From Chitinophagaceae bacterium UBA7600 (GTDB lineage: Bacteria > Bacteroidota > Bacteroidia > Chitinophagales > Chitinophagaceae), in contig DLKC01000004.1 in NCBI GenBank assembly GCA_002478885.1, positions 35,236-99,235 of the forward strand: DNA of 64,000 bases. Reading direction: 5' to 3'. Positions 2,481 to 61,416 of this stretch are shown in pieces; within the stretch, counting starts at the first letter, position 1, and each line of letters begins with the position of its first letter. Under the pieces are notes generated by a model. That model did not search any database. It worked only from the letters and a program-made list of their open reading frames with translations, and had not been told where the DNA came from. Made by a program: the position numbers and the translations under genes.

Positions 2481-2523
2481 GCTTTTGTGCCACTATCGGC
2501 TTCGTTGTGTCACTCCCTTGTAC
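2481..2523 (+). repeat. Dispersed GTTGCGTCGCAC element, copy 1 (short form)
   Basis: Core at 2504-2523 reads GTTGTGTCACTCCCTTGTAC, a variant of the family core GTTGCGTCGCACTCTTGTAC. It lies just downstream of the kinase gene. A facing copy on the other strand is at 2974-3028. Confidence 0.75.
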
Positions 2524-2623
2524 TTTCTTTTGTTAACGCGGCTTTTTGCATGCGCATGACAATCCCCATCCAGTATGCGGCGTGCATCTGCAGGGTGTAC
2601 GATAACCTTATTTGAAGAAACGG

Positions 2624-2731
2624 TTAGTCCATTATAAGCAAGCTTACAATAACGATGGCTGCCATTGCGAGAAACAGCATGCCCATGAGCGCCAGGAATT
2701 TTGCTACGTTCAGATCTTTTTTGTTGTTCAT
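2624..2731 (-). CDS. Small single-pass membrane protein, 35 residues
   Basis: A 35-codon frame from ATG to TAA. The N-terminus is hydrophilic and Lys-rich (MNNKKDLNVAKF) and is followed by one strongly hydrophobic segment of about 22 residues (about 10-32) ending in MD. The layout of a charged head and a single helix is typical of small inner-membrane proteins. It sits alone between copies 1 and 2 of the dispersed element. No family is recognised and coding status rests only on the amphiphilic pattern, so it may be spurious. Confidence 0.4.
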   Translation of the reverse strand: MNNKKDLNVAKFLALMGMLFLAMAAIVIVSLLIMD

Positions 2732-3070
2732 TTTGTTGGTTAAAACTTTTTGAATAGAAGAGCAGTCAGCTCATAAGATAAGCCTATTTTAGTCCATTGC
2801 CGATTAATATTTATACATATACTGAAACAACAATCACGGGTTTTCTCAGTGGTAGCCGAAGCTTCCGGGTTAAGATGATCAGCAGTGTAGCAGCGCCGGC
2901 CTTTTATAAGGAATGCAAAGTGTTGCATGAGTGATAGCGGCATTTGCTGTATGCTTATTAAACAGCGATAGCTGAAGTGTGCGACGCAAGGGACGATGCT
3001 ATGGCATACAGGTGCCGGGGACAAAAAGTATTCCCTCACTTTGCGAACATTGAATTGCGGGTAATATTGA
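2732..3070. other. Intergenic stretch with one dispersed element
   Basis: About 340 bp without a convincing gene. A 99-codon open frame on the minus strand is largely a translation of the repeat and has no protein-like features. The only structure seen is the minus-strand element copy at 2974-3028. Confidence 0.5.
2974..3028 (-). repeat. Dispersed GTTGCGTCGCAC element, copy 2 (short form)
   Basis: On the minus strand it reads T-run, CCCCGGC box, ATGCCATAGCATCG, then CTTGCGTCGCACACTT. It faces copy 1 across the small ORF at 2624-2731. Confidence 0.8.
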
Positions 3071-3454
3071 TTATGCTACCATTTCTGCATAAAGCTTATC
3101 CAGGGTATTATTCATGTCGCTGCACAGGCCAGGGTGCACCGGTGATGTTTGTATAACGGTACTTCTTGCCGCGGTTAGCCAGCGAAAGCGGGAACTTAAT
3201 GGCAGTTGCGCGATGGGGCCGCCCTCTGCTGCGCCCTTGCATATTTGTTCAAAAGCATGAAGGATCTGCGTGAGTTCGTTGAATTCGATTTCCGGGGAGA
3301 GCGCCAGCAGCCTTTCTTTGTTCAAAGCATATTTTATTTGAAGAAAGCTTTTCGATGCACAATAAAGGATTACCCCAACGTTGAGGAATTCGCCTCTTTC
3401 AACGCGTGGCACCACCCTTATAATGGCATACTCAAATAATTGCTTTTCTTGCAT
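3071..3454 (-). CDS. DUF3037 family protein, partner of the HipA-like kinase
   Basis: A 127-residue cytoplasmic protein matching DUF3037 along its length: the N-terminal YAIIRVVPRVERGEFLNVGVIL block and the C-terminal region ending in LDKLYAEM are typical. The biochemical role of the family is unknown. Its 5' end overlaps the 3' end of the upstream HipA-like gene by 23 bp (3432-3454), which implies one transcript and probably translational coupling. DUF3037 proteins are commonly found beside small HipA-like kinases in Bacteroidota and Proteobacteria, so the two probably act together, perhaps with DUF3037 as substrate or regulator (inference). Confidence 0.85.
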   Translation of the reverse strand: MQEKQLFEYAIIRVVPRVERGEFLNVGVILYCASKSFLQIKYALNKERLLALSPEIEFNELTQILHAFEQICKGAAEGGPIAQLPLSSRFRWLTAARSTVIQTSPVHPGLCSDMNNTLDKLYAEMVA

Positions 3455-4229
3455 TGATTGCTTCTTTTACAAAAACTCCGGAAGCGTTAAGCCTTGTGGT
3501 TAAAAATTTTTGATAGACCATTCTTTTTTCGTCGGCGCTTTCAGCGGAACCGTCTTCCCTGAGCCATTCTCCGGGAATCAAAGAAACAATTGCCGCAAAG
3601 ATTTCTTCGTTTAACAGCGCCCGGAATTTTTCATCACTCTTTTCTATTGCTGAAGCCTGAGGCAACAGCACGTGGTCTTTCACCTGTAGAAAAGGTTTTA
3701 TCGCCTGCTCTTCGAAGTTTTGCCACGCGTGATGAAAATACAACGATGCGCCGTGGTCGATCAGCCACAGATCTCTTTTCCACATTAGCATGTTTGTGTT
3801 GCGGGCAGTGCGGTCAACATTGGTAATTAAACAGTCAAGCCACACAATGTCAGACGCCAATTGTTCATCGGGTATTACTGTTACCGGGTCGTAGGTAACA
3901 GCACCCTGCAGGTAATGGAGTGCGAGATTCAGGCCTGTGCTCGCTTTCAACAAATCCTGTATTTCTTCATCCGGCTCTGTTCTGCCAAATGCAGCCTCAA
4001 GATTGGCGAACACAATTTCAGGAACCCTTAACCCCACCGCTCTTGCCAGTTCACCGCCGATAAGTTCTGCGATCAATGCCTTTGGTCCCTGCCCGGCGCC
4101 GCGAAACTTTAACACGTACATGAAGTCGTCATCAGCCCCTGCAATAGCAGGCAAGGAGCCGCCTTCGCGTAGTGGGGTTACATAGCGTGTTACATTTACT
4201 GTTCTTATTTCGGGAGTATAAAATGGCAT
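3432..4229 (-). CDS. HipA-like Ser/Thr kinase domain protein
   Basis: A 265-residue protein resembling the kinase core of HipA but much shorter than full HipA (about 440), and without the N-terminal HipA domain. Visible kinase features are a likely ATP-binding Lys in YVLKFRG (K41), the catalytic-loop-like NVDRTARNTN (137-146, with D139 and N144), and a DFG-like IDHG (D158). No HipB-like helix-turn-helix gene is adjacent; instead it overlaps the DUF3037 gene downstream by 23 bp. It may phosphorylate a protein target as HipA does for glutamyl-tRNA synthetase, but the substrate cannot be read from sequence. A CotH/phosphatidylinositol-kinase-like role is an alternative. Confidence 0.8.
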   Translation of the reverse strand: MPFYTPEIRTVNVTRYVTPLREGGSLPAIAGADDDFMYVLKFRGAGQGPKALIAELIGGELARAVGLRVPEIVFANLEAAFGRTEPDEEIQDLLKASTGLNLALHYLQGAVTYDPVTVIPDEQLASDIVWLDCLITNVDRTARNTNMLMWKRDLWLIDHGASLYFHHAWQNFEEQAIKPFLQVKDHVLLPQASAIEKSDEKFRALLNEEIFAAIVSLIPGEWLREDGSAESADEKRMVYQKFLTTRLNASGVFVKEAINARKAII

Positions 4230-4235
4230 GCGTTA

Positions 4236-4269
4236 AAGAAACAGGTTCCCGTTAAGAGCCGGGAACCTG
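4236..4269 (-). terminator. Intrinsic terminator of the DUF1080 gene
   Basis: Perfect stem CAGGTTCCCG / CGGGAACCTG with a short loop. On the minus strand it is followed by a T-rich tract (TTTCTTTAA). It lies directly downstream of the stop at 4276. Confidence 0.75.
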
Positions 4270-5238: not shown

Positions 5239-5338
5239 GATATGCAATTGGGCTTTTGCCCGGGTTAGAAAAACAATTAATGTATCACGTAAATGTAAGC
5301 CCTTGGTATGATTGCACATAAAGAAACCCTGATATAAA

Positions 5339-5396
5339 TTTTTGTTGCCCGGCATTTGTTTTTCATGGCAGCTTTACTTGCGTCGCACACTTGTAC
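5339..5396 (+). repeat. Dispersed GTTGCGTCGCAC element, copy 3 (short form)
   Basis: T-run, TTGCCCGGC box, CATGGCAGC, then core CTTGCGTCGCACACTTGTAC at 5377-5396. One of the best-preserved copies. Confidence 0.85.
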
Positions 5397-5477
5397 ATAC
5401 TATCTGTGAATGGTCAATGATGAATAAAGCGCTTAGCGGCAACGGTTTTGTTGGATAAGGGTCACCAATATTCGAAA

Positions 5478-7703: not shown

Positions 7704-7732
7704 AAAGCACAACCGGGAGGTTGTGCTTTTTT
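7704..7732 (+). terminator. Intrinsic terminator after the alcohol dehydrogenase
   Basis: Stem AAGCACAACC / GGTTGTGCTT with loop GGGA, followed by TTTT. Confidence 0.9.
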
Positions 7733-7740
7733 GTGTTATG

Positions 7741-7791
7741 TACCCGGCACCGGCAATACTATGATGCTTTGGTTGTGTCACTCACTTGTAC
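7741..7791 (+). repeat. Dispersed element, copy 5, overlapping the end of a gene
   Basis: CACCGGC box, CTATGATGC, then core GTTGTGTCACTCACTTGTAC at 7772-7791. The last 11 codons and the stop of the minus-strand gene at 7759-8256 lie inside this copy. Confidence 0.8.
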
Positions 7792-8256
7792 GTTCTTCAA
7801 GTCATTCAGCAGGTCGTATTGCAGGTCTTCATGCAAACCGGCGATAGCAGCTTTTATCTTTTTTAGCTGCTGCTGAAAAAGATTATTGATCATCGTACTT
7901 TTCTGCAGGTTGATGCCCGAAGCCTTCAATAGTTTGCAATAGTAAATAAGCAATGCAGCTTCGGTTTGTTTATTGCCGCTGTACTTTATGTTTTTGCTTA
8001 GCTGCCTCAAAATCCGGCGAAGATTCTTTTTGGCAAAATAGAGATTGGTTGTGTGTATTTCTTTAAATGCTTCCTCCAGCATTTGTTTTACGCCTGCTGT
8101 GTAGGCTTCTTCATCCTGTGCTTCAAATAAAAGGTATGTAAGCAACTCCTTGTTTTCTTTTTTAAATCTCGCCAGCTGCAGGCACAACTCCATAATCTCT
8201 TTGTCAGACCGGTATTGCAGTTCCTGTTTCAGTTCACTTATGCTTGCTGTCTTCAT
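7759..8256 (-). CDS. Hypothetical helical protein, C-terminus encoded by a repeat
   Basis: 165 residues from the ATG at 8256 (MKTASISELKQ). A longer in-frame start at 8334 adds no protein-like sequence. The protein is charged and almost entirely helical by pattern, with no signal peptide, membrane segment or Cys motif, so it is probably a cytoplasmic helical bundle. It resembles uncharacterised proteins of Chitinophagaceae but no function is known. The terminal residues NVQVSDTTKAS and the stop are a direct translation of dispersed-element copy 5, so the ancestral C-terminus was probably replaced or extended by element insertion. Confidence 0.65.
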   Translation of the reverse strand: MKTASISELKQELQYRSDKEIMELCLQLARFKKENKELLTYLLFEAQDEEAYTAGVKQMLEEAFKEIHTTNLYFAKKNLRRILRQLSKNIKYSGNKQTEAALLIYYCKLLKASGINLQKSTMINNLFQQQLKKIKAAIAGLHEDLQYDLLNDLKNVQVSDTTKAS

Positions 8257-10540: not shown

Positions 10541-10587
10541 ACAACATTTAGTGTATCGCTAACGTTATTATCGGATTATTAGTATGT

Positions 10588-10646
10588 TCTTTGGGAGCCA
10601 GGCTTTGGTACGGGTATTAAGCACCGGTTGCGTCGCACTCTTGTAC
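10588..10646 (+). repeat. Dispersed element, copy 6 (short form)
   Basis: Core GTTGCGTCGCACTCTTGTAC at 10627-10646 is the exact consensus. The left arm (GGGAGCCAGGC) is degenerate. It faces copy 7. Confidence 0.85.
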
Positions 10647-10689
10647 TTAAGCAAATGCATTAGCAATTTTGCCATGAAAATGGAACCCT

Positions 10690-15506: not shown

Positions 15507-15568
15507 AGATTGCTGTTGATATTTGAAAAGTTGTCGTGATTTTCAGCGTTGGGTTTTATGATATCAAC

Positions 15569-15625
15569 TTTGTTGTAGCCAGCACCAGTAGTTTTTTCAA
15601 CATCCGTTGCGTCGCACGCTTGTAC
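15569..15625 (+). repeat. Dispersed element, copy 8 (short form)
   Basis: T-rich GTTGTAGCCAGC box, then core GTTGCGTCGCACGCTTGTAC at 15606-15625. It lies between the convergent PorP/SprF and coiled-coil genes. Confidence 0.85.
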
Positions 15626-15651
15626 TTACATCTCTGTTAACAACGAATACT

Positions 15652-20220: not shown

Positions 20221-20251
20221 TAATCCTCCATTTTCATGGAGGATTTTTTTT
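20221..20251 (+). terminator. Intrinsic terminator after lon
   Basis: Stem AATCCTCCA / TGGAGGATT around TTTTCA, followed by an eight-T run. Confidence 0.92.
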
Positions 20252-20304
20252 GATGCCGGCTTCATAACAGCTGGCAACATTGCTTGCGACGCTCCGTTCA
20301 TCAC
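20252..20304 (+). repeat. Dispersed element, copy 10 (degenerate)
   Basis: The T-run of the lon terminator is followed by GATGCCGGC, a spacer, then TTGCTTGCGACGCTCCG, a decayed core. Confidence 0.45.
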
Positions 20305-20399
20305 TTTGATCAAATCCCGGCTTTTTTGTTTATCACAAATCTCTTTTGCTCACAGGCCATAATCCTTAACTTCATTTTTCCCAAACTAAAATTGCATCA

Positions 20400-22791: not shown

Positions 22792-25623
22792 ATGAAACGC
22801 GTAGCGATACTCTTCGTCCTGCTGCTTTTTGTTTTACCGGGTGTGCTTTTTTCCCAGCCGACCCTTTACGGGTTAACACCGTCAGGCGGCCAGGGCACCG
22901 GCACAATTATACAATATGAAAGTGCCACCAATGCGCTTACCTCCACTTTTAACTTTCCTAATAGCCCTTTATCCCCGGTGGGGCTTGTACAGGCAAGCAA
23001 CGGTAAACTGTATGGAATGACCAGTGCAGGTGGCACCAGTGACTCCGGTGTGATTTATTCATTTGATCCGGCCACAAATACCAGGGTGGACCTGGTTAAT
23101 TTTAACAGCAGTACCGGGGGCCAACCGGGAGGCTGTATGTTGCTTGCAAGCAATGGCAAACTTTATGGCATGACCAGCACCGGAGGCAGTAACGGTGCAG
23201 GTACAATTTTCACCTTCAACCCGTCCACCAACAAAGTTCTTAAACTGTTTGACTTTAATGGCACCAATGGGGCTAATCCCATTGGCAACCTGATCCAGGC
23301 AACCAATAAAAAATTATATGGAATGACCACTTATGGCGGCAGCCATAATTTTGGGACAATTTTTTCCTTCGACCTCGTCACCAATACGCAGGTAAAATTA
23401 TTTGATTTTGACTCTACCAATGGCGCGTACCCGTTTGCCAGCCTTGTACAGGCCAGCAATGGAAAACTTTATGGTACCACTTTAGCAGGTGGTATTTATG
23501 GCGATGTCTACTCTGGTGGCTACGGAACAATTTTTTCTTTCGATCCTGTTACCAATACGCACCTGAAGTTGATTGATTTTAACCAGGCAAACGGAGCGAG
23601 TCCCGTATGCACACTTATTCAGGCAAATAATGGGAAACTCTATGGCACAACCTATCTGGGTGGTCTCTCTTATTATTTGGGTGATCCGGGCGCCGGAACA
23701 ATTTTTTCTTTTAGTACTGACAGTAATGTATTTACGACTCTTTTTGATTTTGACCTTAATAATGACAACGGCGCCTTTCCAGGATCAGGCTTTGTTCAAG
23801 CCGGTAATGGAAAACTCTATGGGATGACAAGCGGAGGCGGAGCTGCTGGCTACGGCACCATTTTCTCTTTTGACCCGTCCTCAAATTTGCAAACCAGGTT
23901 ATTATCTTTCAATCTCACCAATGGCGGCACCCCCAATCACAGCCTTATACAGGCGACCAATGGCAAGCTTTATGGCACTGCTTCAGGTGGCACCGATCAA
24001 AGGGGCATACTCTTCTCCTTTGATCCTGCAACAAATGCCCAGGTTGATCTGAATGATTTTAAATCTCAAAATGGTTACGGTCCTGCAGGTGGCCTGGTGC
24101 AGGCAGCTAATGGAAAATATTACGGGGTTACTTCGCATGGTGGCACCGGGGTGTGGGGAACGATCTTTTCCTACGATGCCTCAGCGAATACGCAGGCAAA
24201 CCTCTATAATTTTAACGGGGCCAATGGTAGTAGCCCCTTATCCAGTCTCGTAATGGCCGGCAATGGAAAATTTTATGGGACGACTTTTATGGGCGGCAAC
24301 GGCGATTATGGAACCATCTTTTCTTTTGATCCAACCACCAATGCGCAGGCGAAGCTTTTTGATTTTAATTATGGCGTCAGCGGTGCTTATGCCCATGGCA
24401 GCCTGGTTCAGGCCGGCAACGGAAAACTTTATGGGATGGCCCAGGGTGGGGGCAGCGGAGGATTGGGTACAATTTACTCATTCGACCCCAGTACCAATAC
24501 GTTTGCGAAGCTATTTGATTTTAATGGAACGAATGGTAGTATACCTTATGGCAGCCTCGTTCAGGCTACCAATGGAAAACTTTACGGGATGACTTACCAG
24601 GGTGGCGCCAATAATTTCGGAACGCTGTTTTCTTTTGACCCTGCTACCAATACACAAGTTAAATTAATTGATTTTAACACAGCCCAAGGCACTAATCCAA
24701 CCGGCAGCCTTATCCAGGCCAGTAATGGTAAACTATACGGAATGACTTATGGCGGCGGCAGCGGCAATTATGGCGTTATTTTTTCCTTTGATCCGTCTAC
24801 CAATACACTGGTAAAACTGTTTGATTTTGATAATACCCGGGGCGCCTATCCTTTTGGCAGCCTGGTCCAGGCCAGTAACGGCAAACTATATGGAATGACC
24901 TGGAGCGGCGGCAGCACTGACAGGGGGGTAGTATTTTCGTATGACATCACGGGTTCTTCTTTCCTGAAGTTGCAGAATTTTAATTGGGCCAATGGTGCCA
25001 ATCCTTCATTTGATGCGCATTTTACAGAAAAAGTCTGTGTAAATGCAAATGTGAATGCGTTAACCACTACCAACATTACAGCGTCTGGCGCCACACTTAA
25101 CTGGACTGCGCCAATCGACCCTACGCAATGGCAGGTACAATACAAGCCTACCATCGCCGGTACTGCTTATACCAGTGTTTTGCTTTCAGGAGATAAACGC
25201 TCTCTCTCTATTTCTTCGCTGCTCCCCAACCAGGCTTATACCTGGAGAATAAGGGCTAAGTGCGGTAAAACCTTTACTGCTTATACAGCAACGGCAAAAT
25301 TTACTACCCTGGCTACAGGGTTAAACGCAATAGCTTTCAACAGTATCAATGAAGCGGGTGACCAGGCTATCAGGGTTTACCCTAATCCGGCACGAGGCCA
25401 GTTTACACTATCCATGCATATCGCAGACAACACAAACGCCATAGCAAAAATTCTGTTGGTTGATATGGTGGGCAAAAAAGTGCTTACAGATAATGCAACG
25501 ATGAGTAATGGCGCATTGCAAAAAACAATCAGCACGCCTGCGGCCCTTGCGGGTGGATTGTATATCGTAAGTGTAATTGTCAATCAAAAAACTTATATGA
25601 CGCAAGTGATTATTGAAAAATAA
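22792..25623 (+). CDS. GloVer-repeat secreted protein with FN3 and T9SS type A domain
   Basis: 943 residues with a signal peptide (about 1-22). Fourteen tandem copies (about 24-735) of a 45-50 residue GloVer-type repeat follow, each containing LVQAxNGKLYGMTxxGG, GTIFSFDP and TKLFDFNxxNG. They probably form a multi-bladed beta-propeller or solenoid. A fibronectin type III domain (about 745-835, ASGATLNWTAPID) comes next. The C-terminus (about 855-943; VYPNPARGQFTLSM, LAGGLYIVSVIVNQKTY) is a type A T9SS sorting domain, so it should be secreted or cell-surface attached. The high DNA similarity among repeats suggests recent expansion. Ligand unknown. Confidence 0.92.
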   Translation: MKRVAILFVLLLFVLPGVLFSQPTLYGLTPSGGQGTGTIIQYESATNALTSTFNFPNSPLSPVGLVQASNGKLYGMTSAGGTSDSGVIYSFDPATNTRVDLVNFNSSTGGQPGGCMLLASNGKLYGMTSTGGSNGAGTIFTFNPSTNKVLKLFDFNGTNGANPIGNLIQATNKKLYGMTTYGGSHNFGTIFSFDLVTNTQVKLFDFDSTNGAYPFASLVQASNGKLYGTTLAGGIYGDVYSGGYGTIFSFDPVTNTHLKLIDFNQANGASPVCTLIQANNGKLYGTTYLGGLSYYLGDPGAGTIFSFSTDSNVFTTLFDFDLNNDNGAFPGSGFVQAGNGKLYGMTSGGGAAGYGTIFSFDPSSNLQTRLLSFNLTNGGTPNHSLIQATNGKLYGTASGGTDQRGILFSFDPATNAQVDLNDFKSQNGYGPAGGLVQAANGKYYGVTSHGGTGVWGTIFSYDASANTQANLYNFNGANGSSPLSSLVMAGNGKFYGTTFMGGNGDYGTIFSFDPTTNAQAKLFDFNYGVSGAYAHGSLVQAGNGKLYGMAQGGGSGGLGTIYSFDPSTNTFAKLFDFNGTNGSIPYGSLVQATNGKLYGMTYQGGANNFGTLFSFDPATNTQVKLIDFNTAQGTNPTGSLIQASNGKLYGMTYGGGSGNYGVIFSFDPSTNTLVKLFDFDNTRGAYPFGSLVQASNGKLYGMTWSGGSTDRGVVFSYDITGSSFLKLQNFNWANGANPSFDAHFTEKVCVNANVNALTTTNITASGATLNWTAPIDPTQWQVQYKPTIAGTAYTSVLLSGDKRSLSISSLLPNQAYTWRIRAKCGKTFTAYTATAKFTTLATGLNAIAFNSINEAGDQAIRVYPNPARGQFTLSMHIADNTNAIAKILLVDMVGKKVLTDNATMSNGALQKTISTPAALAGGLYIVSVIVNQKTYMTQVIIEK

Positions 25624-25684: not shown

Positions 25685-25728
25685 TTAATACAATCACCGG
25701 ACTAACTTCCGGTGAGTGGGGAAAGAAG

Positions 25729-25786
25729 TTTTTTGTACCCAACTGTATCGCATAGATGATACATTGGTTGCGTCGCACTCTTGTAC
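25729..25786 (+). repeat. Dispersed element, copy 12 (short form)
   Basis: TTTTTTGTACCC box, GATGATACATT, then the exact consensus core GTTGCGTCGCACTCTTGTAC at 25767-25786. It faces copy 13. Confidence 0.88.
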
Positions 25787-40869: not shown

Positions 40870-41084
40870 GTGGTGAATTAAGCTATTAAGCTAAATATTT
40901 TGAGGAACAGGAACAAAAGTTTTTACGCTGTAATTGTTGCCCCCAGGACCCTCTACTGCTACTGTTGGCTGGTCCGCAAATCAATCGCCCGGTTGCCTTT
41001 TTCGTTAGCGGGACAGTAAACGATATTAGCGGGATAAGTCTAACCTTAAGTCTCCGGCTCAAACCGGCTGCTCAAAGCGATTTT

Positions 41085-41144
41085 GTACGAGTGTGCGACG
41101 CAACGGTAGCTTAATACTTGTTCATTAGCCCGGTTCAAAAAATA
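41085..41144 (-). repeat. Dispersed element, copy 18 (short form)
   Basis: On the minus strand: TTTTTTGAACCGGGC, a spacer, then GTTGCGTCGCACACTCGTAC (41085-41104). It ends 4 bp from the stop of the cytochrome-like gene. Confidence 0.85.
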
Positions 41145-41148
41145 GCTG

Positions 41149-44100
41149 CTACTCCTTCTTTGTAATAAAAGCCAGCAGGCTCGCCATCTGCTCTTTCGAC
41201 AGCGACGACTCGAGCCCAACGGGCATTGCGGAGGTTTCCGAGGTTTCCATGCTGCTGATCTCGGCTCTTGCAATCGTGATGAATTGCCCGCTCTGTGTTT
41301 TCAAATTGATAGCGGCCGATGAAGAAGAATTCATAATGCCGCTTAGCTTTTCGCCATTGGTTTTTGTCACCGTCCACAGGTCGTATTGCGTAGCAATGGA
41401 GCGGTTGGGGTTAAGGATATCTGCCATGATAGAAGCCTTGTCGCGGTTGCTGAGGGTGCTCAGATCGGGACCGAAACTGTTGCCATCTTTACTTGCGTAT
41501 TGGTGACAGGTTCCGCACACGGTTTGAAAAACAATATGCCCCTTTGCGGTATCACCTTTCATAGTCAATACCGGCTGGTATTGTTTAAACACCGCCTCAC
41601 GGCTTTCGATTTCCGGCGCCAGCAGTTGTCTTGCCCTTTCACGGATATTCCTGTCATCGTAGTTCATGAGCTCCACTTTTCTCGGCCAACTGATAGCGGT
41701 TGTTTGTATCCCGCCTGTTTTTACGGCATCAAGCAATACATTCATGCCCGCAGCAGAGGATAGCAGCGCATCCAAAGCTGCATCGCGGGCATCATGCGAA
41801 AGTGTTGGCCAGTTCTTTACAATACAGCCTGCAGCTGCCGTTGGGGACTGCTGATTGTAAATGCGGATGGCAGTTTGCTGCAAAATGACCGGTTGCTTAC
41901 CACCGATGATCTTTTCAAACATGCCGCTGTAATCGGTTTGCTTATTAAGCGCGAGAATTTTCAGGGCGTCGTTCCTGAATGCGGGGTATTGTAAGGTATC
42001 GGGAGCAATGATCTCTGCCGATGCCAGTGTCTCGAACCACTTTTTCATGGGTGTAACGCCCATTAAAGAATAGAGGTCAATAGCTGAACTGCGTACCAGT
42101 GCCGGCGTCATCATCGTAAACTCGTTCAACAGGGCAAAACGCGACGAGTCCATATCACCGGCAGGCAGCCCCTTTATGCGCAAGGCATTGCTTAAGCCAT
42201 CCAGTAACGCTGACTGCCACCAGTCTGAAGCTGCTGCATTCTGATGCGTTGCGAGGCTGATTATTTTTTTTATGTCGCCGGTTCGTTGCGACAGCCCTGT
42301 CACCTGGGCACAGTTCCTGAAGAACAAAGCTTTGCCTTCGCTTTGTTTATTGGTCAATGCCGGAAGTGTTTTTTGCAGCAGGTTCCATTCATTGCCTTTA
42401 GCCGAAGCAAGTGCGGCGATCTGCACCCACTTATCTTCCATGTCGGTTTCCAGTATCTTTTGCTGTGCTGCGGCACTGGCCTCACTGTGAATATCGCCAA
42501 GTGTGCATAGCAACTGAAAGCGCACTTTAGGCGATGGGTCATCTTGCAATGCCAGCAATTCATTGGTTAGCTGCGGCATTTGACCAATATGCAATTCCGC
42601 GATCTTAATAGCATTTTCCCGCACACCATAGGTTGGGTTATGCAACGCTTTTATAAGCGTTGTGGCATCGGTTGCATGAAGCCCTTCAAGTGTCCACAAT
42701 GCATGCACGATGGCGGTGGCAGATGTTGTGGTATCGGCAAATTGCTTTAGCATTCCGGCGGCAGCGTTGTCTTTTTGGTCTACCAGCAAGCGCTGCGCAT
42801 TCCTTCGCCACCAGGTATTGTTGCTCGTTAATGCATTCACAAGTTCTGTTGTCGTTGCCTTGCCAAGATTGATGTTATTCAGCCAGTTCATTTTTGTAGC
42901 ACTCGTTGGCGTAATCCGGTAAATACGGCCTTTGTCAGAACCGTTGTACAATGCGCCGGATTTGATCACCTCTTCACTCAGCCATTCGGGGTGTTCAATA
43001 ATCTGCCGGTAGTAGTCGATAACGTATAAGGCGCCGTCAGGTCCTATATACATCTGCACCGGTCTGAACCAACCATCTGTTGATGCGAGAAATTCTTTTT
43101 GCTTATACATTGCCGAAGCGGTGAATGTTGCGCCCCGTTCAGTGATTTGGTCAGCGTGAATAATATTGCTCACCGGTTCTGCCACCAGTGTTACATTGTT
43201 GAAATTGTCGGGCAATAAACCGCCATTGTAATACGTGATGCCGCATGCGGAAGTGATCACTCCCCTGTCTGTCAGCAACTGGTTCTCGGGATTATGGGTA
43301 ATGGGATATACTTCACATGCATCACCATGATCGGAGATATAATCCGATGCGTCCGCCACCAGCAGGTCAGGATTGCGGCCAAGGTATTTTGCAGCGATTA
43401 CTTCATGAAAAATATGGTCGGCATTTTCCACGCAGAAATGATGGCCCCAATTGTCAAAGCTTTGCCCGTATTGCGACTCGCCTGAAAGCATTTCCAGGTC
43501 ACGACTGTCTGGCTTAAAGCGGATATTCCTTCCGTCTGCATTGCGTGGCAATGTTTTGGCTTTTGGGTCATCAACATAACGCACAAGGTTACCGCTGTCG
43601 ATGAACATCATCGAAACCTTTGGCGTAACAACGCCCATATGTGCAAGGTAGATCCAGTTATCCAGGCCAAAGATGGGCGTGTTGGCAATATGCTGCGGGT
43701 TGGTGAGTGCAATGCCGGTGAGCATCGTTTTTTTGATATCGGCCTTGCCGTCGTTATCCGAGTCTTCGAGGTATAATACTTCGGGCACATCAACAACGAT
43801 CAACCCTTTTTTCCAGCGCATGAGACCTGTTGGCAGCCGCAGGTGATCGGCGAAGAGAGTGCTTTTGTCGGGAATGCCATCGCCATTGGTATCGCTCAGC
43901 AGTTTTATTTTGCCGGTACCGGAAGTGTCCAGGGGGTAGCCATGCAGCTCCAGCACATACATATTGCCATGCTCATCCACTTCCATGGCAACAGGGTCGG
44001 AGATCATCGGCTCACTCGCCACGAGTTCGATCTTTAATCCTTCCGGTAATTGAAAGCTGTTCAACGCCTGCTGTGGCGACAAGCCGGCATAGGATGTTTC

Positions 44101-44178
44101 CGGCACTTGTTCTTGCTGATCGTTCTTGCACGCATAAAAGCAACAGAGTAGTAAAAGCGCAAATGATAATCGTCTCAT
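41149..44178 (-). CDS. Haem c lipoprotein: PQQ-type propeller, HEAT repeats, CxxCH domain
   Basis: 1009 residues with a lipoprotein signal (MRRLSFALLLLCCFYAC). The N-terminal half (about 40-440) is a sugar-dehydrogenase-like beta-propeller of the membrane-bound dehydrogenase/PVC type (LKIELVASEPMISDPVAMEVDEHGNMYVLE, FGLDNWIYLAHMG, GWFRPVQMYIGPDGALYVIDYYRQIIEHP). HEAT-like helical repeats follow (about 450-850). A C-terminal monohaem cytochrome c domain carries CGTCH near 887-891, with a likely Met axial ligand near the end. It probably oxidises a sugar or other small molecule in the periplasm and passes electrons to the chain; the substrate is unknown. Confidence 0.9.
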   Translation of the reverse strand: MRRLSFALLLLCCFYACKNDQQEQVPETSYAGLSPQQALNSFQLPEGLKIELVASEPMISDPVAMEVDEHGNMYVLELHGYPLDTSGTGKIKLLSDTNGDGIPDKSTLFADHLRLPTGLMRWKKGLIVVDVPEVLYLEDSDNDGKADIKKTMLTGIALTNPQHIANTPIFGLDNWIYLAHMGVVTPKVSMMFIDSGNLVRYVDDPKAKTLPRNADGRNIRFKPDSRDLEMLSGESQYGQSFDNWGHHFCVENADHIFHEVIAAKYLGRNPDLLVADASDYISDHGDACEVYPITHNPENQLLTDRGVITSACGITYYNGGLLPDNFNNVTLVAEPVSNIIHADQITERGATFTASAMYKQKEFLASTDGWFRPVQMYIGPDGALYVIDYYRQIIEHPEWLSEEVIKSGALYNGSDKGRIYRITPTSATKMNWLNNINLGKATTTELVNALTSNNTWWRRNAQRLLVDQKDNAAAGMLKQFADTTTSATAIVHALWTLEGLHATDATTLIKALHNPTYGVRENAIKIAELHIGQMPQLTNELLALQDDPSPKVRFQLLCTLGDIHSEASAAAQQKILETDMEDKWVQIAALASAKGNEWNLLQKTLPALTNKQSEGKALFFRNCAQVTGLSQRTGDIKKIISLATHQNAAASDWWQSALLDGLSNALRIKGLPAGDMDSSRFALLNEFTMMTPALVRSSAIDLYSLMGVTPMKKWFETLASAEIIAPDTLQYPAFRNDALKILALNKQTDYSGMFEKIIGGKQPVILQQTAIRIYNQQSPTAAAGCIVKNWPTLSHDARDAALDALLSSAAGMNVLLDAVKTGGIQTTAISWPRKVELMNYDDRNIRERARQLLAPEIESREAVFKQYQPVLTMKGDTAKGHIVFQTVCGTCHQYASKDGNSFGPDLSTLSNRDKASIMADILNPNRSIATQYDLWTVTKTNGEKLSGIMNSSSSAAINLKTQSGQFITIARAEISSMETSETSAMPVGLESSLSKEQMASLLAFITKKE

Positions 44179-52080: not shown

Positions 52081-52164
52081 TTTGTGTAGCCGGTGGTAGT
52101 GCATATGGCATCGCCGGTTGTGCTTTAGCTCCGGGAGGCACGATCCGGGGTCACTCACTTGTGC
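52081..52164 (+). repeat. Dispersed element, copy 21 (hairpin-insert form)
   Basis: TTTGTGTAGCCGG, CATATGGCATCGCCG, GTTGTG, an insert with the stem CTCCGGGA / ATCCGGGG, then TCACTCACTTGTGC. It starts 3 bp after the ftsK stop. Confidence 0.75.
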
Positions 52165-52295
52165 AGATGTTTTTCAAATCAGCATGTATTATTGTTAGCG
52201 TAGCTGCATTTTGGCAGCAACAAAATCACGACCTGCTATTAATGCCGGGCGTATCGCATCTTGTATTTCTCATCCCTGCTTTGTAATTTTATTCA

Positions 52296-52969: not shown

Positions 52970-53079
52970 TAGATGCTTCCTTCGTCAGCATGACAAGCTT
53001 AGGAATAACGATAAGCTGAGCATGTAGTATGAGCTTTATTAAAGAGCCATGACTTGTCATGCCGGGGCACGAGGCATCT
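52970..53079. repeat. Imperfect inverted repeat of about 110 bp
   Basis: The left arm (AGATGC...CAGCATGACAAG) pairs with the right arm (CTTGTCATGCC...GAGGCATCT) around a central spacer of about 45 bp. It resembles REP-pair or small MITE structures. Confidence 0.6.
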
Positions 53080-53084
53080 CATTT

Positions 53085-53224
53085 TGGCGCAGGTCTCCAA
53101 ACCTGTGCCTTAAAGTTACTTGACTATTAGCCTGAACGACTAAGAGTTTTATTGGGACTTTGTATCATAACTAAATTAAGGAAACCTTATGCAGTTTGGG
53201 AACTAGTGAGGGGACCTGCGCCAG
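53085..53224. mobile_element. MITE-like element 1 with GGCGCAGGTC terminal inverted repeats
   Basis: The left end is TGGCGCAGGTCTCC and the right end is GGGGACCTGCGCCA, giving 13-14 bp inverted ends. The left end also forms a small hairpin with ACCTGTGCC. The internal sequence differs from elements 2 and 3. No coding capacity. Confidence 0.6.
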
Positions 53225-53246
53225 TGTGAGCCTTTCTACCTCTCCA

Positions 53247-53615
53247 TTAAATATTTTCAGGTTTAAGAGATTTCTTCTTGACACAGAAAACAATAGCAAA
53301 CAAAAGAACATTTACTATTTGCAATAACACGACATAACCATAATCTAAATGGCGATATTGCTGATAATGGCGAGGATATGTTATAATAAACGCTATTAAA
53401 AAAATACTGTGTTGTGACAACTTATAAGTTGTGGAGTGCCTCATTAAATCTAAGAGCTTGCCTTTCTCATAAATTAACAACCCAAAAAGAAGTAGTATTG
53501 AAGAACCAAACCAGATATAATAACTGGTTCTCTCCGAAAGAAGTACAGCAAAATTTGCAATGACCAATACATACATCATTACAAAAAAACGATATGCTTT
53601 ATATTCTTTGCTCAT
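53247..53615 (-). CDS. Hypothetical small membrane protein in the repeat island
   Basis: 122 residues from the ATG at 53615 (MSKEYKAYRF). Four hydrophobic segments (about 10-27, 33-50, 65-82, 92-113) are linked by charged loops and the tail is Lys-rich (CVKKKSLKPE). No family is recognised. The codon use is more AT-rich than the flanking core genes. It lies between MITE-like elements 1 and 2, suggesting it arrived with them. Confidence 0.6.
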   Translation of the reverse strand: MSKEYKAYRFFVMMYVLVIANFAVLLSERTSYYIWFGSSILLLFGLLIYEKGKLLDLMRHSTTYKLSQHSIFLIAFIITYPRHYQQYRHLDYGYVVLLQIVNVLLFAIVFCVKKKSLKPENI

Positions 53616-53694
53616 CTTAAATCTCGTGTTTATAATCAAGCTCATTAGTAAACTGTTCCACAGTAACCTTTGGTAATACTTTATCTGCCACAAC

Positions 53695-53904
53695 GCCTCC
53701 AGTTTAGCCCAGGTCTACTGACCTTTTCCAATATGAGGGATTGACAAATTTATACTTACTGCTCATGGCAATTAAGATACGAATTTCTGCTTTGAACTTT
53801 CTGTTTTTAGCTGCCTTGTTTTGATATCGTGCAATGAATTGAGGCCTTTGTATATTTGAACCAAGTGACGTTTCGGCACGGGTCGGGAGACCTGCGCCAG
53901 AATA
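53695..53904. mobile_element. MITE-like element 2 (about 210 bp, copy A of a direct repeat)
   Basis: The left end GCCCAGGTCTACTGACC and right end GGTCGGGAGACCTGCGCC are inverted. The interior matches element 3 in the same orientation over about 180 bp (shared GGCAATTAAGATACGAATTT and GTATATTTGAACCA). It contains TATATTTG at 53851-53858. Confidence 0.8.
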
Positions 53905-53910
53905 GGGCCC

Positions 53911-54267
53911 TCAAAACGAGGGCTTGCTATTATTGATTATTTCTTGATTTAACTTTCCTGCTTTAATTGCTTTTATTAAATGAAGTATTAAAAGGTCTTT
54001 CTTTTTTATTGATTTTTTCCCTGTAAAAAGCCTTGCTCCTGCACCTATTATATCGAAACCCTCTGCACTAAAATACTCGGTTGCCATAAATTTTGATACA
54101 TCTACATTAAATTTTTTTCCAAAAGCTATTATGTACTCCATTGCATCATCCCCATATATGCCTAAATGTTTTTCTAAACAGGAGCTCTCTTTTACATCTT
54201 TCGGATATCTTCCTGCTTGCTCCTGTGTAAATTCTTTTATAGCATTTAAAAGTTCGTCATCACTCAT
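53911..54267 (-). CDS. DUF1493-like acyl-carrier-protein-fold protein
   Basis: 118 residues from the ATG at 54267 (MSDDELLNAIKEF). The pattern is FTQEQAGRYPKDVKESSCLEKHLGIYGDDAMEYIIAFGKKFNVDVSKF...YFSAEGFD. It fits DUF1493, which has a helical acyl-carrier-like fold but lacks the phosphopantetheine Ser (GDDA instead of DSL). Such genes often occur in accessory and toxin-immunity regions. AT-rich, between MITE-like elements 2 and 3. Confidence 0.75.
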   Translation of the reverse strand: MSDDELLNAIKEFTQEQAGRYPKDVKESSCLEKHLGIYGDDAMEYIIAFGKKFNVDVSKFMATEYFSAEGFDIIGAGARLFTGKKSIKKKDLLILHLIKAIKAGKLNQEIINNSKPSF

Positions 54268-54396
54268 TGCGATTCTTTTATGATTATTTAATATAAACAA
54301 TTTTCAAAATCAAATACTCATAGAATTTAACAATGTTTCTCCAGGCTTGGGTACAGGTCAGGGTATATGCGGCAGTATGGCATGCTACAGGGTTAT

Positions 54397-54765
54397 TCAT
54401 TCAGCTAAATCAAGTTTTGTTGAAGAAAGAACAGGGTTGCGAAGATTTTCTAAATAAAGATTAACCCCGTCTTTAGAAAAGTAAATTTTCAGATAATTTG
54501 GAATCTTAGTAGCTATTTTCCTTCCATCTTTAAAAGTGAATTCTAAAAACTTATTTATAAGTGTGGGGTAAAATAATGGAAGTGGTTTTACATCTTTTAA
54601 TGATTTAACAGAATAAGTGCCTTTTTCCCACAGATTATTAAAGCTAATAACCCCATTGCCGATTTTTATGTCATAGAATTTTTTGTAATAAAGATTAATA
54701 AAAATAAAAATTATAAACGCTATTATCGTTAGAAACAACATGTAGGTTGTGAATTTTAAAATCAA
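54397..54765 (-). CDS. Hypothetical membrane protein, probably 5'-frameshifted
   Basis: 122 residues if started at the TTG at 54765. An N-terminal membrane helix (about 5-28) leads into a beta-rich soluble domain (KFYDIKIGNGVISFNNLWEKGTYSVKSLKDVKPLPLF) that looks PH-like. Upstream, the same frame encodes a second hydrophobic helix (GLLGYFFIIFLIFLI) but no start. A plausible ATG (54863, MKSNYVFESTG) is in the neighbouring frame, so a one-base shift near 54800-54830 may have broken the gene. AT-rich; no family known. Confidence 0.5.
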   Translation of the reverse strand: MILKFTTYMLFLTIIAFIIFIFINLYYKKFYDIKIGNGVISFNNLWEKGTYSVKSLKDVKPLPLFYPTLINKFLEFTFKDGRKIATKIPNYLKIYFSKDGVNLYLENLRNPVLSSTKLDLAE

Positions 54766-54892
54766 AAAAATAAGAAATATTATAAAAAAATACCCGAGAA
54801 GCCCAATAAAGCTATCTGTCCATCTTTATTCCCAGTTGATTCAAAAACGTAATTACTTTTCATGAATCAGTCTTTTTTTTATCTTTTATAGT

Positions 54893-55102
54893 TGCCTCAG
54901 TTTGGCGCAGGTCTACTGACCTTTTCCGGTAAGAGGGATTCACGAATTTATTTTTACTGCACATGGCAATTAAGATACGAATTTTTGCTTTGCACTTTCC
55001 GTTTTTGTTGCGTGGTATTGATGCCGTACAATAAATTGAGGCCGTTGTATATTTGAACCAGGTAACAAATTGAGAGAGGTCGGAGACTTGCACCATGATG
55101 GG
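54893..55102. mobile_element. MITE-like element 3 (about 210 bp, copy B of a direct repeat)
   Basis: The left end is TTGGCGCAGGTCTACTGACC and the right end GGTCGGAGACTTGCACCA is decayed. The interior aligns with element 2 throughout. TATATTTG at 55048-55055 lies about 80 bp before the next + strand gene and could drive it. Confidence 0.8.
55048..55055 (+). promoter_or_regulatory. Promoter-like -7 box inside MITE-like element 3
   Basis: TATATTTG fits TAnnTTTG and is conserved at the equivalent place in element 2 (53851-53858). Confidence 0.4.
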
Positions 55103-55555: not shown

Positions 55556-55653
55556 TCCTATTTGGCATTAGTCAGGAAAACTTCACCAGTATGGAAAAGA
55601 CCTGTATATACAAGTTATGCTATGTCTCTTTGCCAGGTAGCATTCCTGACGAT

Positions 55654-55706
55654 GAAGTGTGCGACGCAACGAAAGCCCCATGCATGTTTAACAGCCGGGC
55701 CCATAA
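55654..55706 (-). repeat. Dispersed element, copy 22 (short form)
   Basis: On the minus strand: AATTTATGGGCCCGGC, ATGCATGGGGC, then GTTGCGTCGCACACTTC. It lies about 100 bp upstream of aguB. Confidence 0.8.
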
Positions 55707-55806
55707 ATTTTCTGCATCCTAAAATCACCAAATTCCTAAATCCCGCAATCTCAAAATCACCATATCTTCCGATTCGCTAATTTCGCAACCTTATAAAACA
55801 CGATCT

Positions 55807-56682
55807 ATGGCTAAAGTAAAAATAGGGCTTGTTCAAATGAGTTGCACCGGGCATAAGCCCGCCAACTTTGAAAAGGCAGTGAATAAAATAAGAGAAGCCG
55901 CAGCAAAAGGCGCGCAGATCGTTTGCCTGCAGGAGCTTTTTACTTCGCTTTATTTCTGCGATGTGGAAGACTACGAAAATTTCAAACTGGCAGAAGTGAT
56001 ACCTGGTCCGTCAACGGAAGTGTTGGGCAAACTTGCTGCAGAACTGGGTGTGGTGATCATCGCATCCTTGTTTGAAAAACGCACGCAGGGCATTTATCAC
56101 AATACCACCGCAGTGCTCGATGCCGATGGAATCTATCTTGGCAAGTACCGCAAAATGCATATACCCGACGACCCTTCTTACTATGAGAAGTTTTATTTTA
56201 CCCCGGGCGATCTCGGTTATAAAATATTCAAAACAAAATATGCCAGTATCGGCGTGCTTATCTGCTGGGATCAGTGGTACCCCGAAGCTGCACGCATTAC
56301 GGCTTTGATGGGCGCGGAGATCTTATTTTATCCGACCGCGATTGGCTGGCATATTTCACAGGACGAAGCGACAAATACAGAACAATACAATGCATGGCAA
56401 ACCATTCAGCGCAGCCATGCTGTCGCCAATGGCGTACACGTAGTGAGCGTTAACCGTTGCGGTCATGAGCAGAATGGCGCCATGAAATTCTGGGGAGGTT
56501 CCTTCATCGCCAACCCTTTTGGAAGCGTTATTTACAAGGCGTCGCATGATGACGAAGAAGTGCATGTGGAGGAACTTGATCTCAATAAAACAGACAGCTA
56601 CCGCACACACTGGCCATTTTTACGCGACAGGAGAATCGACTCTTACCAGCCGATAACGAAGCGGTTTATTGATGAGGAGTGA
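55807..56682 (+). CDS. aguB: N-carbamoylputrescine amidohydrolase AguB
   Basis: 291-residue carbon-nitrogen hydrolase with the catalytic triad E43 (LQELFTS), K116 (KYRKMHIP) and C153 (LICWDQWYPE). The DQWYPEAARI, YPTAIGW and HVVSVNRCG stretches match plant-type N-carbamoylputrescine amidase, which releases putrescine, CO2 and ammonia. The gene for agmatine deiminase follows 88 bp downstream, so the two enzymes complete agmatine to putrescine. A repeat element lies in the gap. Confidence 0.94.
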   Translation: MAKVKIGLVQMSCTGHKPANFEKAVNKIREAAAKGAQIVCLQELFTSLYFCDVEDYENFKLAEVIPGPSTEVLGKLAAELGVVIIASLFEKRTQGIYHNTTAVLDADGIYLGKYRKMHIPDDPSYYEKFYFTPGDLGYKIFKTKYASIGVLICWDQWYPEAARITALMGAEILFYPTAIGWHISQDEATNTEQYNAWQTIQRSHAVANGVHVVSVNRCGHEQNGAMKFWGGSFIANPFGSVIYKASHDDEEVHVEELDLNKTDSYRTHWPFLRDRRIDSYQPITKRFIDEE

Positions 56683-56699
56683 TTTGTAAGCAAACATAA

Positions 56700-56736
56700 T
56701 AACGCTATTCTGCTTCGTAGTGTCACTCACTTGTAC
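56700..56736 (+). repeat. Dispersed element, copy 23 (between aguB and aguA)
   Basis: Core GTAGTGTCACTCACTTGTAC at 56717-56736. It ends 34 bp before the aguA start codon, so it sits in the leader of aguA. Confidence 0.7.
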
Positions 56737-56770
56737 GATTTGTTCATCACTGATCATAAACTTTTTTTGA

Positions 56771-57826: not shown

Positions 57827-57881
57827 ATTGATTTGCTGCATATCCCACCCTTCTGCTGAGCGGTGTTGTGAACGGTGAAAG

Positions 57882-57932
57882 GATTGCGACGCAACGAAGA
57901 TGCCACGGAGAACCAAAGCCGGTATTAAAAAT
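57882..57932 (-). repeat. Dispersed element, copy 24 (short form)
   Basis: On the minus strand: TTTTTAATACCGGC, GTGGCATCTTC, then GTTGCGTCGCAATCC. It is downstream of aguA, so the agu pair is flanked and split by three copies. Confidence 0.75.
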
Positions 57933-57940
57933 ATTGCATA

Positions 57941-60047: not shown

Positions 60048-60099
60048 TTTACTCTTTTTGATAATCTTTTCAGATCCGGTTAAGTTAATTTGTTCTTTC

Positions 60100-60585
60100 T
60101 TACATCACGTTTTCTGGACTAACCAAATAATTCCGCAGTGCCAGTCTCGCACGGTGCAGGTAAACCTTCACCTGTGCTTCATTCAATCCTGTTATTCTTC
60201 CAATCTCCTCATAACTGTAGCCCTCATAATCTTTCAGCATTACCAGGCTTCGTTGTACTTCGTTAAGCCTGTTTAACGCCTCCTGCAAAGCCTTTTTCAT
60301 ATTATTTACCGGCTGCTGGTAAACTTTGGCGGTAGCCGAAAATTCGTCCTGCAGGGTAACACGTTTGCTTTTTCTCAGGTGGTCGATCATCTGGTTATAG
60401 GCAACAGTGAACAAATACGACTTGCTTTTGCCGTTTTCCACAGCATCGCGGTGAAGCCATAATTTTTCAAAAGCCGACTGAACAATATCTTTCGCGTCTT
60501 CTTCGTGTCGTAAATTCTTCACGATAAAACGGAATACATTATCAGCGTACTGGTTTACACATTCATTATATTCCCGTTCGGTCAT
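60100..60585 (-). CDS. ECF RNA polymerase sigma factor
   Basis: 161-residue sigma-70 family protein with region 2 (about 10-75: YADNVFRFIVKNLRHEEDAKDIVQSAFEKLWLHRD, SYLFTVAYNQMIDHLRKSKR) and region 4 (about 105-155: LNRLNEVQRSLVMLKDYEGYSYEEIGRITGLNEAQVKVYLHRARLALRNYL). It is the first gene of a minus-strand operon with the anti-sigma-like and barrel genes, and probably activates its own operon as such factors commonly do. The inducing signal is unknown. Confidence 0.93.
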   Translation of the reverse strand: MTEREYNECVNQYADNVFRFIVKNLRHEEDAKDIVQSAFEKLWLHRDAVENGKSKSYLFTVAYNQMIDHLRKSKRVTLQDEFSATAKVYQQPVNNMKKALQEALNRLNEVQRSLVMLKDYEGYSYEEIGRITGLNEAQVKVYLHRARLALRNYLVSPENVM

Positions 60586-60704
60586 AAACAGCGTTTCTTG
60601 TTGCGTGCATTAAAATTACCTCTGTTATACGTATCGGCCGGTTTAATGTTACATCCCGGCCCCTTTTTTTAATCAAAAAAGCCAAAAACCTTGCCGTATG
60701 GGCA

Positions 60705-60731
60705 AAAAAAAGAGGCTCCTGTTGAGCCTCT
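60705..60731 (-). terminator. Intrinsic terminator of the RRM gene
   Basis: Stem GAGGCTC / GAGCCTC, followed on the minus strand by an eight-T run, 20 bp after the stop. Confidence 0.9.
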
Positions 60732-60750
60732 CACAAGAATCTATAGCTGA

Positions 60751-61056
60751 CTACCAACGGTTATTGGAGTAAGAAGGCTTTCTTCCACCGCCATTCCTGT
60801 CACCACCACGATCTTCTTTTGGTCTTGCTTCATTCACACGGATTGCACGGCCGTCAACAGTAGCGCCATCAAGCTCTTTTATAGCTTTCTGTGCAGCAGC
60901 GTTGTCAGACATTTCAACGAAACCGAAACCACGGCTGCGATTGGTAAATTTGTCCATGATTACTTTAGCAGAAGAAACTTCACCATATTCGGCAAAAAAG
61001 CTTCTCAGGTCTTCGTCCTGAACGGCGAAGCTCAAATTTGAAACATAAATGTTCAT
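60751..61056 (-). CDS. RNA-binding protein with one RRM domain
   Basis: 101 residues: a single RRM (about 1-78) with RNP2 IYVSNL and RNP1 RGFGFVEM, then a Gly/Arg-rich tail (RGGDRNGGGRKPSYSNNRW). Such small RRM proteins are common in Bacteroidota and Cyanobacteria, bind single-stranded RNA and can be induced by cold or stress. The 5' flank (61057-61200) is AT-rich and could be a long leader, as in cold-shock genes (inference). Confidence 0.95.
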   Translation of the reverse strand: MNIYVSNLSFAVQDEDLRSFFAEYGEVSSAKVIMDKFTNRSRGFGFVEMSDNAAAQKAIKELDGATVDGRAIRVNEARPKEDRGGDRNGGGRKPSYSNNRW

Positions 61057-61416
61057 GCTGAAAAATTGATAGATTAAAAATACTTGAGAAAAAAAGCAGA
61101 CGTAAAGAAGACTAAACTAACTATTGCGAAAAAATGCTTAGCAGAAAAATATCATTCACTTAACAAATGCTGTAAGAACTCAAATTGACGCTGCAAAATT
61201 AAGGGATGCGGGGCATAGTTGTTTTTTTATTTTGCCTTTACGGCCTGTTTGCTTGTGTACCCGGCAGCATATCATTGATCATCATCCGTTGCGTCGCACC
61301 CTTGTACGTTCGGCTCTTAACGCCACAGCCGGCAGCATCCCATACACAGAAGCTGGTGGCATAATCTTTTCGCGCGATGCACGGTTTTCGGAAAAGAGAA
61401 CTAATAAAGAAGCTTG
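61057..61416. other. Intergenic region upstream of the RRM gene
   Basis: 360 bp. The first 150 bp are AT-rich and may be the RRM leader and promoter. Element copy 25 lies at 61248-61307. No gene is seen. Confidence 0.5.
61248..61307 (+). repeat. Dispersed element, copy 25 (short form)
   Basis: TGTTTGCTTGTGTACCCGGC box, GATCATCATCC, then core GTTGCGTCGCACCCTTGTAC at 61288-61307. Confidence 0.85.

Follow-up and report, generated by a model that had tools for sequence, protein, structure and literature searches.

The 64,000-nucleotide stretch of Chitinophagaceae bacterium UBA7600 analysed here (the window; host genome G000, 5.47 Mb in 105 contigs) carries scattered copies of an intergenic repeat unit of about 82 bp, built around a 19-bp core. 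We assign a probability of just under one half (roughly 0.48) to the reading that these copies belong to a new non-palindromic, non-autonomous family that resembles repetitive extragenic palindromic (REP) elements in its dispersal, has been spread in trans and is kept for its core. The units have defined ends, form head-to-head dimers, avoid genes, abut stop codons or the T-runs of terminators, and combine a near-invariant core with drifting flanks; they have no RNA structure and are not coupled to REP-associated tyrosine transposase (RAYT) genes. Their gain and loss in blocks is seen in a few cases. Among the genomes surveyed, the family is confined to the Chitinophagaceae. REPs are defined by a hairpin and their GTAG group is tied to RAYT; a family with neither suggests that there may be a further way of reaching thousands of intergenic copies.

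Copy number and anatomy of the unit

The initial annotation had proposed a dispersed element with a 20-bp core, and this 20-mer matches the window 8 times at up to 3 mismatches, against a mean of 0.00 in 100 shuffles. A search of the whole host genome with the core TTGCGTCGCACNCTTGTAC returned 947 matches (466 + 481) at no more than 1 mismatch and 0 for the reversed-pattern control, which is not background; when the pattern was widened to a second subtype, TTGTGTCACTC, the total rose to 1230 (609 + 621). From a 1.07-Mb sample of this genome that includes the window, 333 copies (control 2) were obtained with up to 3 mismatches allowed for the main and up to 2 for the second subtype. A full-length profile detected 19 places in the window at E < 0.01, 14 of them with at most 3 core mismatches and five weak, and additional partial copies are visible by eye near 48146 (-) and at 52131-52170. 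The earlier count of about 25 copies, about 18 of them clear, is therefore too high.

In the alignment of the 333 copies, the unit extends from about -45 to about +39 relative to the core start, and base use outside these limits is near random. An A-rich stretch is followed by a T-run, the motif (G)(T/A)(A/G)CCCGGC, a variable part of about 20 positions that includes an AGC box ahead of the core, the 19-bp core, and a TCAGCAA-like box. The T-run, the CCCGGC or GCCGGC box and the core, all parts of the earlier description, are present in the sequence logo of these copies; the string given for the variable part, ATGGCATCG, appears by eye to be one of two alternative versions, the other being CTATTAAGC. 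Likeness between copies continues beyond the core to about -40 and +42 and is near the null outside. Subfamilies that share the whole unit exceed a block-shuffled null, with a left-side mean best identity of 0.72 versus 0.63 in G081, for example. The outer flanks lie close to this null (means within 0.05), and the few high-scoring pairs among them, such as a right-side maximum of 1.00 versus 0.80 in G000, may stem from close pairs or segment duplications.

The two core subtypes account for about 80% (main) and 20% (second) of the copies. Nearly all copies (99%) have C-G or T-A at core positions 3 and 7, and this covariation, the strongest base-pair-like one, fits a dyad as well as it fits a stem with a three-base loop. 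The core is semi-palindromic, reading TGCG-T-CGCA in the main and GTG-T-CAC in the second subtype. At one locus (L379:11061-11225), the palindrome CGTCATTGCGAGG sits between two head-to-head halves of the element, and at another (L420:10835) a palindrome takes the place of the left half of a core; in both cases a hairpin-type repeat is located within the element or abuts it.

Judging by their position after stop codons, some copies are probably transcribed, as a structured RNA or a small coding element would be. That the unit is such an element is hardly credible and already contradicted: 80 single copies gave no folding signal (mean z 0.0), RNAalifold found 0 consensus base pairs in 60 aligned copies from three genera, and the sole Rfam gathering-level hit of the window is a tRNA gene (63836-63908). 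No coding frame runs through the unit, and stop codons outside it are at background level in all six frames. A peptide-like reverse-strand frame through the core, noticed by eye, was rejected on the same return of stop frequencies to background.

Genomic position, distribution and turnover

Genes were called with a hexamer-based predictor made for this analysis and not taken from published annotation. On these calls, 8 of 333 copies (G000), 4 of 179 and 7 of 139 lie within predicted genes in the larger samples. The statement that none lies inside a gene body is nearly right for the window, where two of the 14 clear cores (7773 and 38288) overlap predicted gene ends. When the upstream gene is on the same strand, the distance from its stop codon to the start of the core shows an abrupt limit at about 35 nt, and it clusters at 36-45 nt (G000, 76 of 180 copies; G163, 41 of 95; G092, 23 of 88), so that the unit, with its T-run, often begins within about 8 nt of the stop codon. 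Where a hairpin terminator is present, which concerns a minority of copies, the unit shares its T-run. An intrinsic terminator has a GC hairpin directly before the T-run, a layout for which many copies leave no room because they lie too near the stop codon. In the complete genome G163, copies from 20 stretches are oriented with the G-rich strand in 93 cases and opposite to it in 85 (p 0.60); there is no replichore bias, and the replication-associated signal that had been suggested is left unsupported.

Most copies are single rather than paired. Neighbours at most 250 bp apart comprise 54 head-to-head, 3 tail-to-tail and 0 tandem pairs in G000, and 28, 0 and 0, respectively, in G163. The idea that pairs are the sole intact units was tried and rejected, as single copies are not consistently more decayed: they are slightly worse in G000 (p 0.045) but better in the Limnovirga group (p 0.025), and G163 and G081 show no difference.

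The survey covered 294 Chitinophagaceae genomes and a phylum draw of 247 genomes. At least one match was found in 153 of the 294, with a range of 0 to 2382 per genome, so that about half are copy-free; the highest counts belong to G230 (2382), G163 (2191), G171 (2121), G092 (1639) and G081 (1408). The phylum draw contained four matching genomes, all of them members of the family; the family is named here from Limnovirga, the genus of G092 and G171, which belongs to the Chitinophagaceae. Beyond the phylum, coverage consisted of an exact-match scan. Named hosts among the genome matches listed include Foetidibacter, Segetibacter, Limnovirga, Pinibacter, Paracnuella, Hydrotalea, Niabella and Lacibacter. 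The 84-position profile, built on three genera, regained the 82-bp layout in other genera, many matches spanning positions 2-83. With at most 150 candidates scored per genome, a value of 150 means that all those scored matched, and on this scale members of one genus differ sharply: at least 150 in G125 versus 0 in G003; at least 150 in G025, 12 in G144 and 0 in G213; at least 150 in both G291 and G004 versus 1 in G126; and at least 150 in G090 versus 16 in G170. Such contrasts between sister species (0 versus hundreds) offer a clean handle for tracing the enzyme and the binding protein proposed below.

Plasmid and phage records gave no match to the one copy tested. Exact cores are held by 21 stretches of viral contigs (L152-L172), possibly as provirus flanks or phage-borne copies. 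A Pfam scan of 20 of the 67 predicted proteins at 21 loci from low-copy genomes returned mostly housekeeping genes and no mobile-element gene, and open-licence full texts held nothing relevant on the core letters or on repeats in these bacteria.

Between G092 and two stretches of G171 (70-78% nucleotide identity), 10 of 11 copies in 20 kb have an aligned counterpart in the same orientation, one of these places showing a switch of subtype; the eleventh, for which no counterpart was seen, lies beyond the last aligned block of an alignment read by hand. In the comparison of G163 with G081, 4 of 12 copies have a counterpart at the aligned place and a fifth by gene order. Across genera, 68 ortholog pairs pooled from several comparisons include 16 with a copy downstream in both genomes (odds ratio 5.0, p 0.004). 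When the same test was limited to the 39 pairs with both gaps of at least 60 bp, p was 0.18, and for this reason we do not claim positional conservation across genera.

Syntenic gene pairs with equal copy numbers differ in gap length by a median of -3 bp (n = 20 of 28 comparisons), and those with one extra copy by a median of +125 bp (6 values, 5 positive and one negative, two of them from the same locus). Two comparisons in the reverse direction gave -113 and -243 bp; the second was scored as a deficit of two copies solely on account of a copy that lies barely within the predicted end of a gene. Most clearly, a gap that measures 5 bp in G003 corresponds to one of 149 bp in G125, and the G125 element starts right at the stop codon. 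In these few cases, copies tend to be gained or lost together with blocks of about 60-200 bp.

Proposed spread of the family and retention of its core

The near-invariant core between drifting flanks suggests that a protein binds it. The flank score shows no relation to the number of core mismatches (18.7, 19.3, 20.9 and 18.3 for 0, 1, 2 and 3 mismatches) in copies that were chosen by their core; within the limits of this selection, they do not resemble relics in which the whole unit is decaying. Relic mobile DNA would lose its core along with its flanks; since this core does not decay, a bound protein is the simplest reason. We propose that copies would be spread in trans by a recombinase or transposase that may read double-stranded DNA at the semi-palindromic core and not a hairpin. 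After landing, the core would be retained through continued binding of a protein, whose most likely place of action is the borders of transcription units; this protein and the mobilising enzyme are possibly the same. With a core this conserved, what keeps such repeats in place can be tested directly.

Several observations weigh against this proposal. Positions are largely fixed within Limnovirga, which is slow for a mobile element, and no transposase or recombinase is tied to the unit. The support from block indels is small, comprising 8 unequal comparisons of which one has the opposite sign and one is counted as -2 only through a predicted gene end. Miniature inverted-repeat transposable elements carry terminal inverted repeats and a target-site duplication; head-to-head pairs of the present unit exist but singles dominate, and the aligned filled and empty sites are too diverged to reveal a duplication of the target. 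The choice of copies by core favours good cores in the flank-score comparison, and the constancy of the core could also mean that the family was never mobile, each site being kept for its function.

In that last alternative, the unit is a functional protein-binding site that acts as a hairpin-free, directional boundary at the ends of transcription units: a protein on the core would stop RNA polymerase arriving from the T-run side, with the U-tract in its hybrid, and head-to-head pairs would block both sides. The short distance from stop codon to T-run, the almost exclusive head-to-head pairing and the positions kept within Limnovirga suit such a site, as does the presence of a copy in 18 of 18 convergent gaps of 100-249 bp in G163. 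At convergent gene ends of G000, hairpin terminators are rarer when a same-strand copy is present (9 of 62 versus 46 of 121, p 0.001), but neither G163 nor G092 shows this exclusion, and copies in the tandem gaps of G163 are even positively associated with hairpin terminators (16 of 48 versus 10 of 66). The T-run is equally strong where the neighbouring gene points away and is therefore not tied to ending a gene. The upstream gene is on the opposite strand for 134 of 314 G000 copies, and divergent gaps in G163 hold a copy in 3 of 25 cases below 250 bp versus 19 of 25 larger ones. About half of the family genomes surveyed do without any copy, and adjacency to 3' ends alone proves little, because known REPs abut them too, often within 20 bp, as a REP survey reports (PMC3733652). 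Taken with this evidence on both sides, a boundary site that was never mobile appears unlikely.

Of 30 unselected genomes, 5 carry a core (up to 3 mismatches) in the gap between rpoB and rpoC, and none of the 12 copy-free ones does, in a post hoc comparison that was prompted by G145, whose only copy lies there, and to which G163 was added in the knowledge that it has one. The carriers are G000 (L438), G145 (L130), G163 (L303), G025 (L461), G024 (L454), G016 (L457) and G012 (L441). Their copies are antisense except in G012, and G000 and G025 carry a sense copy as well; those in G024 and G016 have 3 core mismatches, and the whole genomes of G012 and G016 hold 4 and 34 copies. A hairpin-free transcription boundary is a possible, weakly supported function. 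Its extension to a genome-wide system is quite unlikely; there, a protein on the core, about 33 bp past a T-tract starting at the stop codon, would halt RNA polymerase at the T-tract, and head-to-head pairs would isolate neighbouring transcription units at as many as about 2,400 places, one of them, in several genera, being the rpoB-rpoC gap. To our knowledge, such a boundary would resemble Pol I termination at Reb1/TTF-I sites more than any known bacterial terminator.

A signal for DNA uptake that had accumulated through biased transformation, as in Neisseria or Haemophilus, would share with the present family its abundance and high density, a strong core with weaker flanks and of stationary quality, and occurrence on both strands without replichore bias. 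Known uptake signals also lie in genes, unlike the copies described here (8 of 333), and neither subfamilies that share the whole unit nor gaps that grow block-wise with copies are expected of sites arising in place, which makes this origin very unlikely. An ordinary REP or REPIN mobilised by RAYT would account for the dispersal pattern but is highly improbable, being largely contradicted already by the missing hairpin and by the data on RAYT. As the initial annotation had stated, the window contains no Y1- or RAYT-type transposase: G000 has three Pfam Y1 hits (C1, C91 and C72:7499), all of them outside the window, other transposase types not having been searched for. One G000 protein exceeds the RAYT cut-off (NF047646, 101.7 bits versus 80), and two more are IS200-like. 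The RAYT gene (C1:8354-8920) does have one degenerate copy about 60 bp upstream, but it is followed by another repeat. A RAYT gene flanked by the unit was not found. None of the 30 RAYT loci scanned in the family has the main core within 4 edits; two, L078 (G081) and L101 (G212), have the second subtype within 4 mismatches, both from copy-rich genomes (1408 and 151 copies); L078 holds three such places, one of them (4 mismatches) close upstream of the RAYT gene. Three tandem copies of the repeat that follows the G000 gene (GCACAAGACCC...GTCTTGCGC; L041:8920-9340) are perhaps the REP of that RAYT itself.

RAYT hits do not track copies either. Among genomes with at least 50 copies, 18 of 24 have a RAYT hit and 6 of 24 have none, versus 192 of 294 overall (counted by hand). 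Four of the six (G024, G075, G094 and G245; 55-196 copies, 97-100% complete) have no Y1 or RAYT hit in either the RAYT or the Pfam search, the RAYT result for G094 and G245 being read from their not being in the hit list; this absence rests on both searches jointly because Pfam misses weak RAYTs, as in G163, which has hits in the RAYT search and none in Pfam. Conversely, G252 encodes the closest RAYT (83% identical) but has no core match and one weak profile match (E 0.0011). A core 256 bp from a RAYT gene in G028:C46 is the sole low-copy case and is not repeated among the other low-copy places listed. Coupling to RAYT or Y1 was rejected for lack of association.

A REP-like family spread in trans, our preferred reading, thus agrees with one suggestion of the initial annotation in its dispersal, namely the dimers, the 3' ends, the block-wise gain and loss and the patchy presence among sisters, and departs from it in the hairpin and the RAYT link; the suggestion of a selected site agrees with the constant core between drifting flanks and with the positional conservation in one genus, leaving aside the replication signal. 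GTAG-superfamily REPs with RAYT, as described in PMC3733652, likewise have many extragenic copies near 3' ends, inverted dimers and species-level variation, whereas the present family is without palindromic stem, GTAG tag beside the stem or RAYT coupling. We call it REP-like in dispersal and not a REP because the defining stem-loop and the tag beside it are absent. The CGTC REPs (dRS3, RPE-4, RPE-6) appear in the same survey as mainly head-to-head dimers that have a stem of 8-9 bp, a loop of 4-5 bases and, for the most part, a CCA tail, with CGTC to TGTC variation, a preference for heterodimers in several families and no dedicated transposase (PMC3733652). Here, too, head-to-head dimers dominate and the core carries CGTC or TGTC, and the heterodimer preference is echoed by mixed-subtype pairs, which are in excess in G163 (p 0.004) and not in G000 (p 0.71); unlike in those REPs, no stem follows CGTC or TGTC inside the core and the unit is longer. 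REPINs consist of two inverted copies with a variable spacer, and single copies occur beside the pairs. The present family shares these features but differs in that most copies are single and not consistently more decayed, and in that no RAYT is coupled to them.

Copies and other features in the window

The copies are given here with the E value of the full-length profile. At the left of the window, a plus-strand copy at 2463-2546 (core 2505-2523, TTGTGTCACTCCCTTGTAC, 0 mismatches to the second subtype; E 5.6e-6) lies just after the gene at 208-2472, and a minus-strand copy at 2948-3031 (core 2971-2989, 3 mismatches; E 3.4e-12) is found downstream of the gene at 3071-3454 (-). Plus-strand copies follow at 5336-5419 (core 5378-5396, 0 mismatches; E 2.2e-15) and at 7731-7814, where a second-subtype core (7773-7791, 0 mismatches; E 2.5e-11) overlaps the 3' end of the predicted gene 7759-8256 (-). 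Two plus-strand copies have weak head-to-head mates with 8-9 mismatches: 10586-10669 (core 10628-10646, 0 mismatches; E 2.3e-13), with its mate at 10722 (-; E 0.003), and 25726-25809 (core 25768-25786, 0 mismatches; E 6.7e-15), with its mate near 25884-25902 (-; E 3e-4). Convergent gaps hold the plus-strand copies at 15565-15648 (core 15607-15625, 0 mismatches; E 2.4e-10) and 30610-30693 (core 30652-30670, 1 mismatch; E 6.6e-16), and a divergent gap holds the minus-strand copy at 34549-34632 (core 34572-34590, 3 mismatches; E 7.1e-9). The plus-strand copy at 38246-38329 (core 38288-38306, 0 mismatches; E 3.4e-15) overlaps the start of the predicted gene 37394-38311 (-), and the minus-strand copy at 41062-41145 (core 41085-41103, 1 mismatch; E 4.8e-14) comes directly after the gene at 41149-44106 (-). 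Towards the right end lie 55628-55711 (-; core 55651-55669, 3 mismatches; E 5.9e-15), 56676-56759 (+; second-subtype core 56718-56736, 1 mismatch; E 3.6e-4) and 61247-61330 (+; core 61289-61307, 0 mismatches; E 1.1e-12).

The remaining weak copies are 20242-20325 (+; core 20284-20302, 6 mismatches; E 7.5e-5), which follows a hairpin plus T-run, 57853-57936 (-; core 57876-57894, 5 mismatches; E 8.7e-5), and one at 44175 (+) with 8-9 mismatches. A separate cluster of hairpin-type repeats (GGCGCAGGT...ACCTGTGCC and variants), more like ordinary REPs, occupies 53078-55083 and includes two longer direct repeats, 53700-53808/54898-55006 (88%) and 53805-53886/55002-55083 (76%). The open reading frame at 22792-25623 contains about ten tandem repeats of about 153 bp (51 residues) each, which we take to be reminiscent of extracellular GloVer-type repeats.

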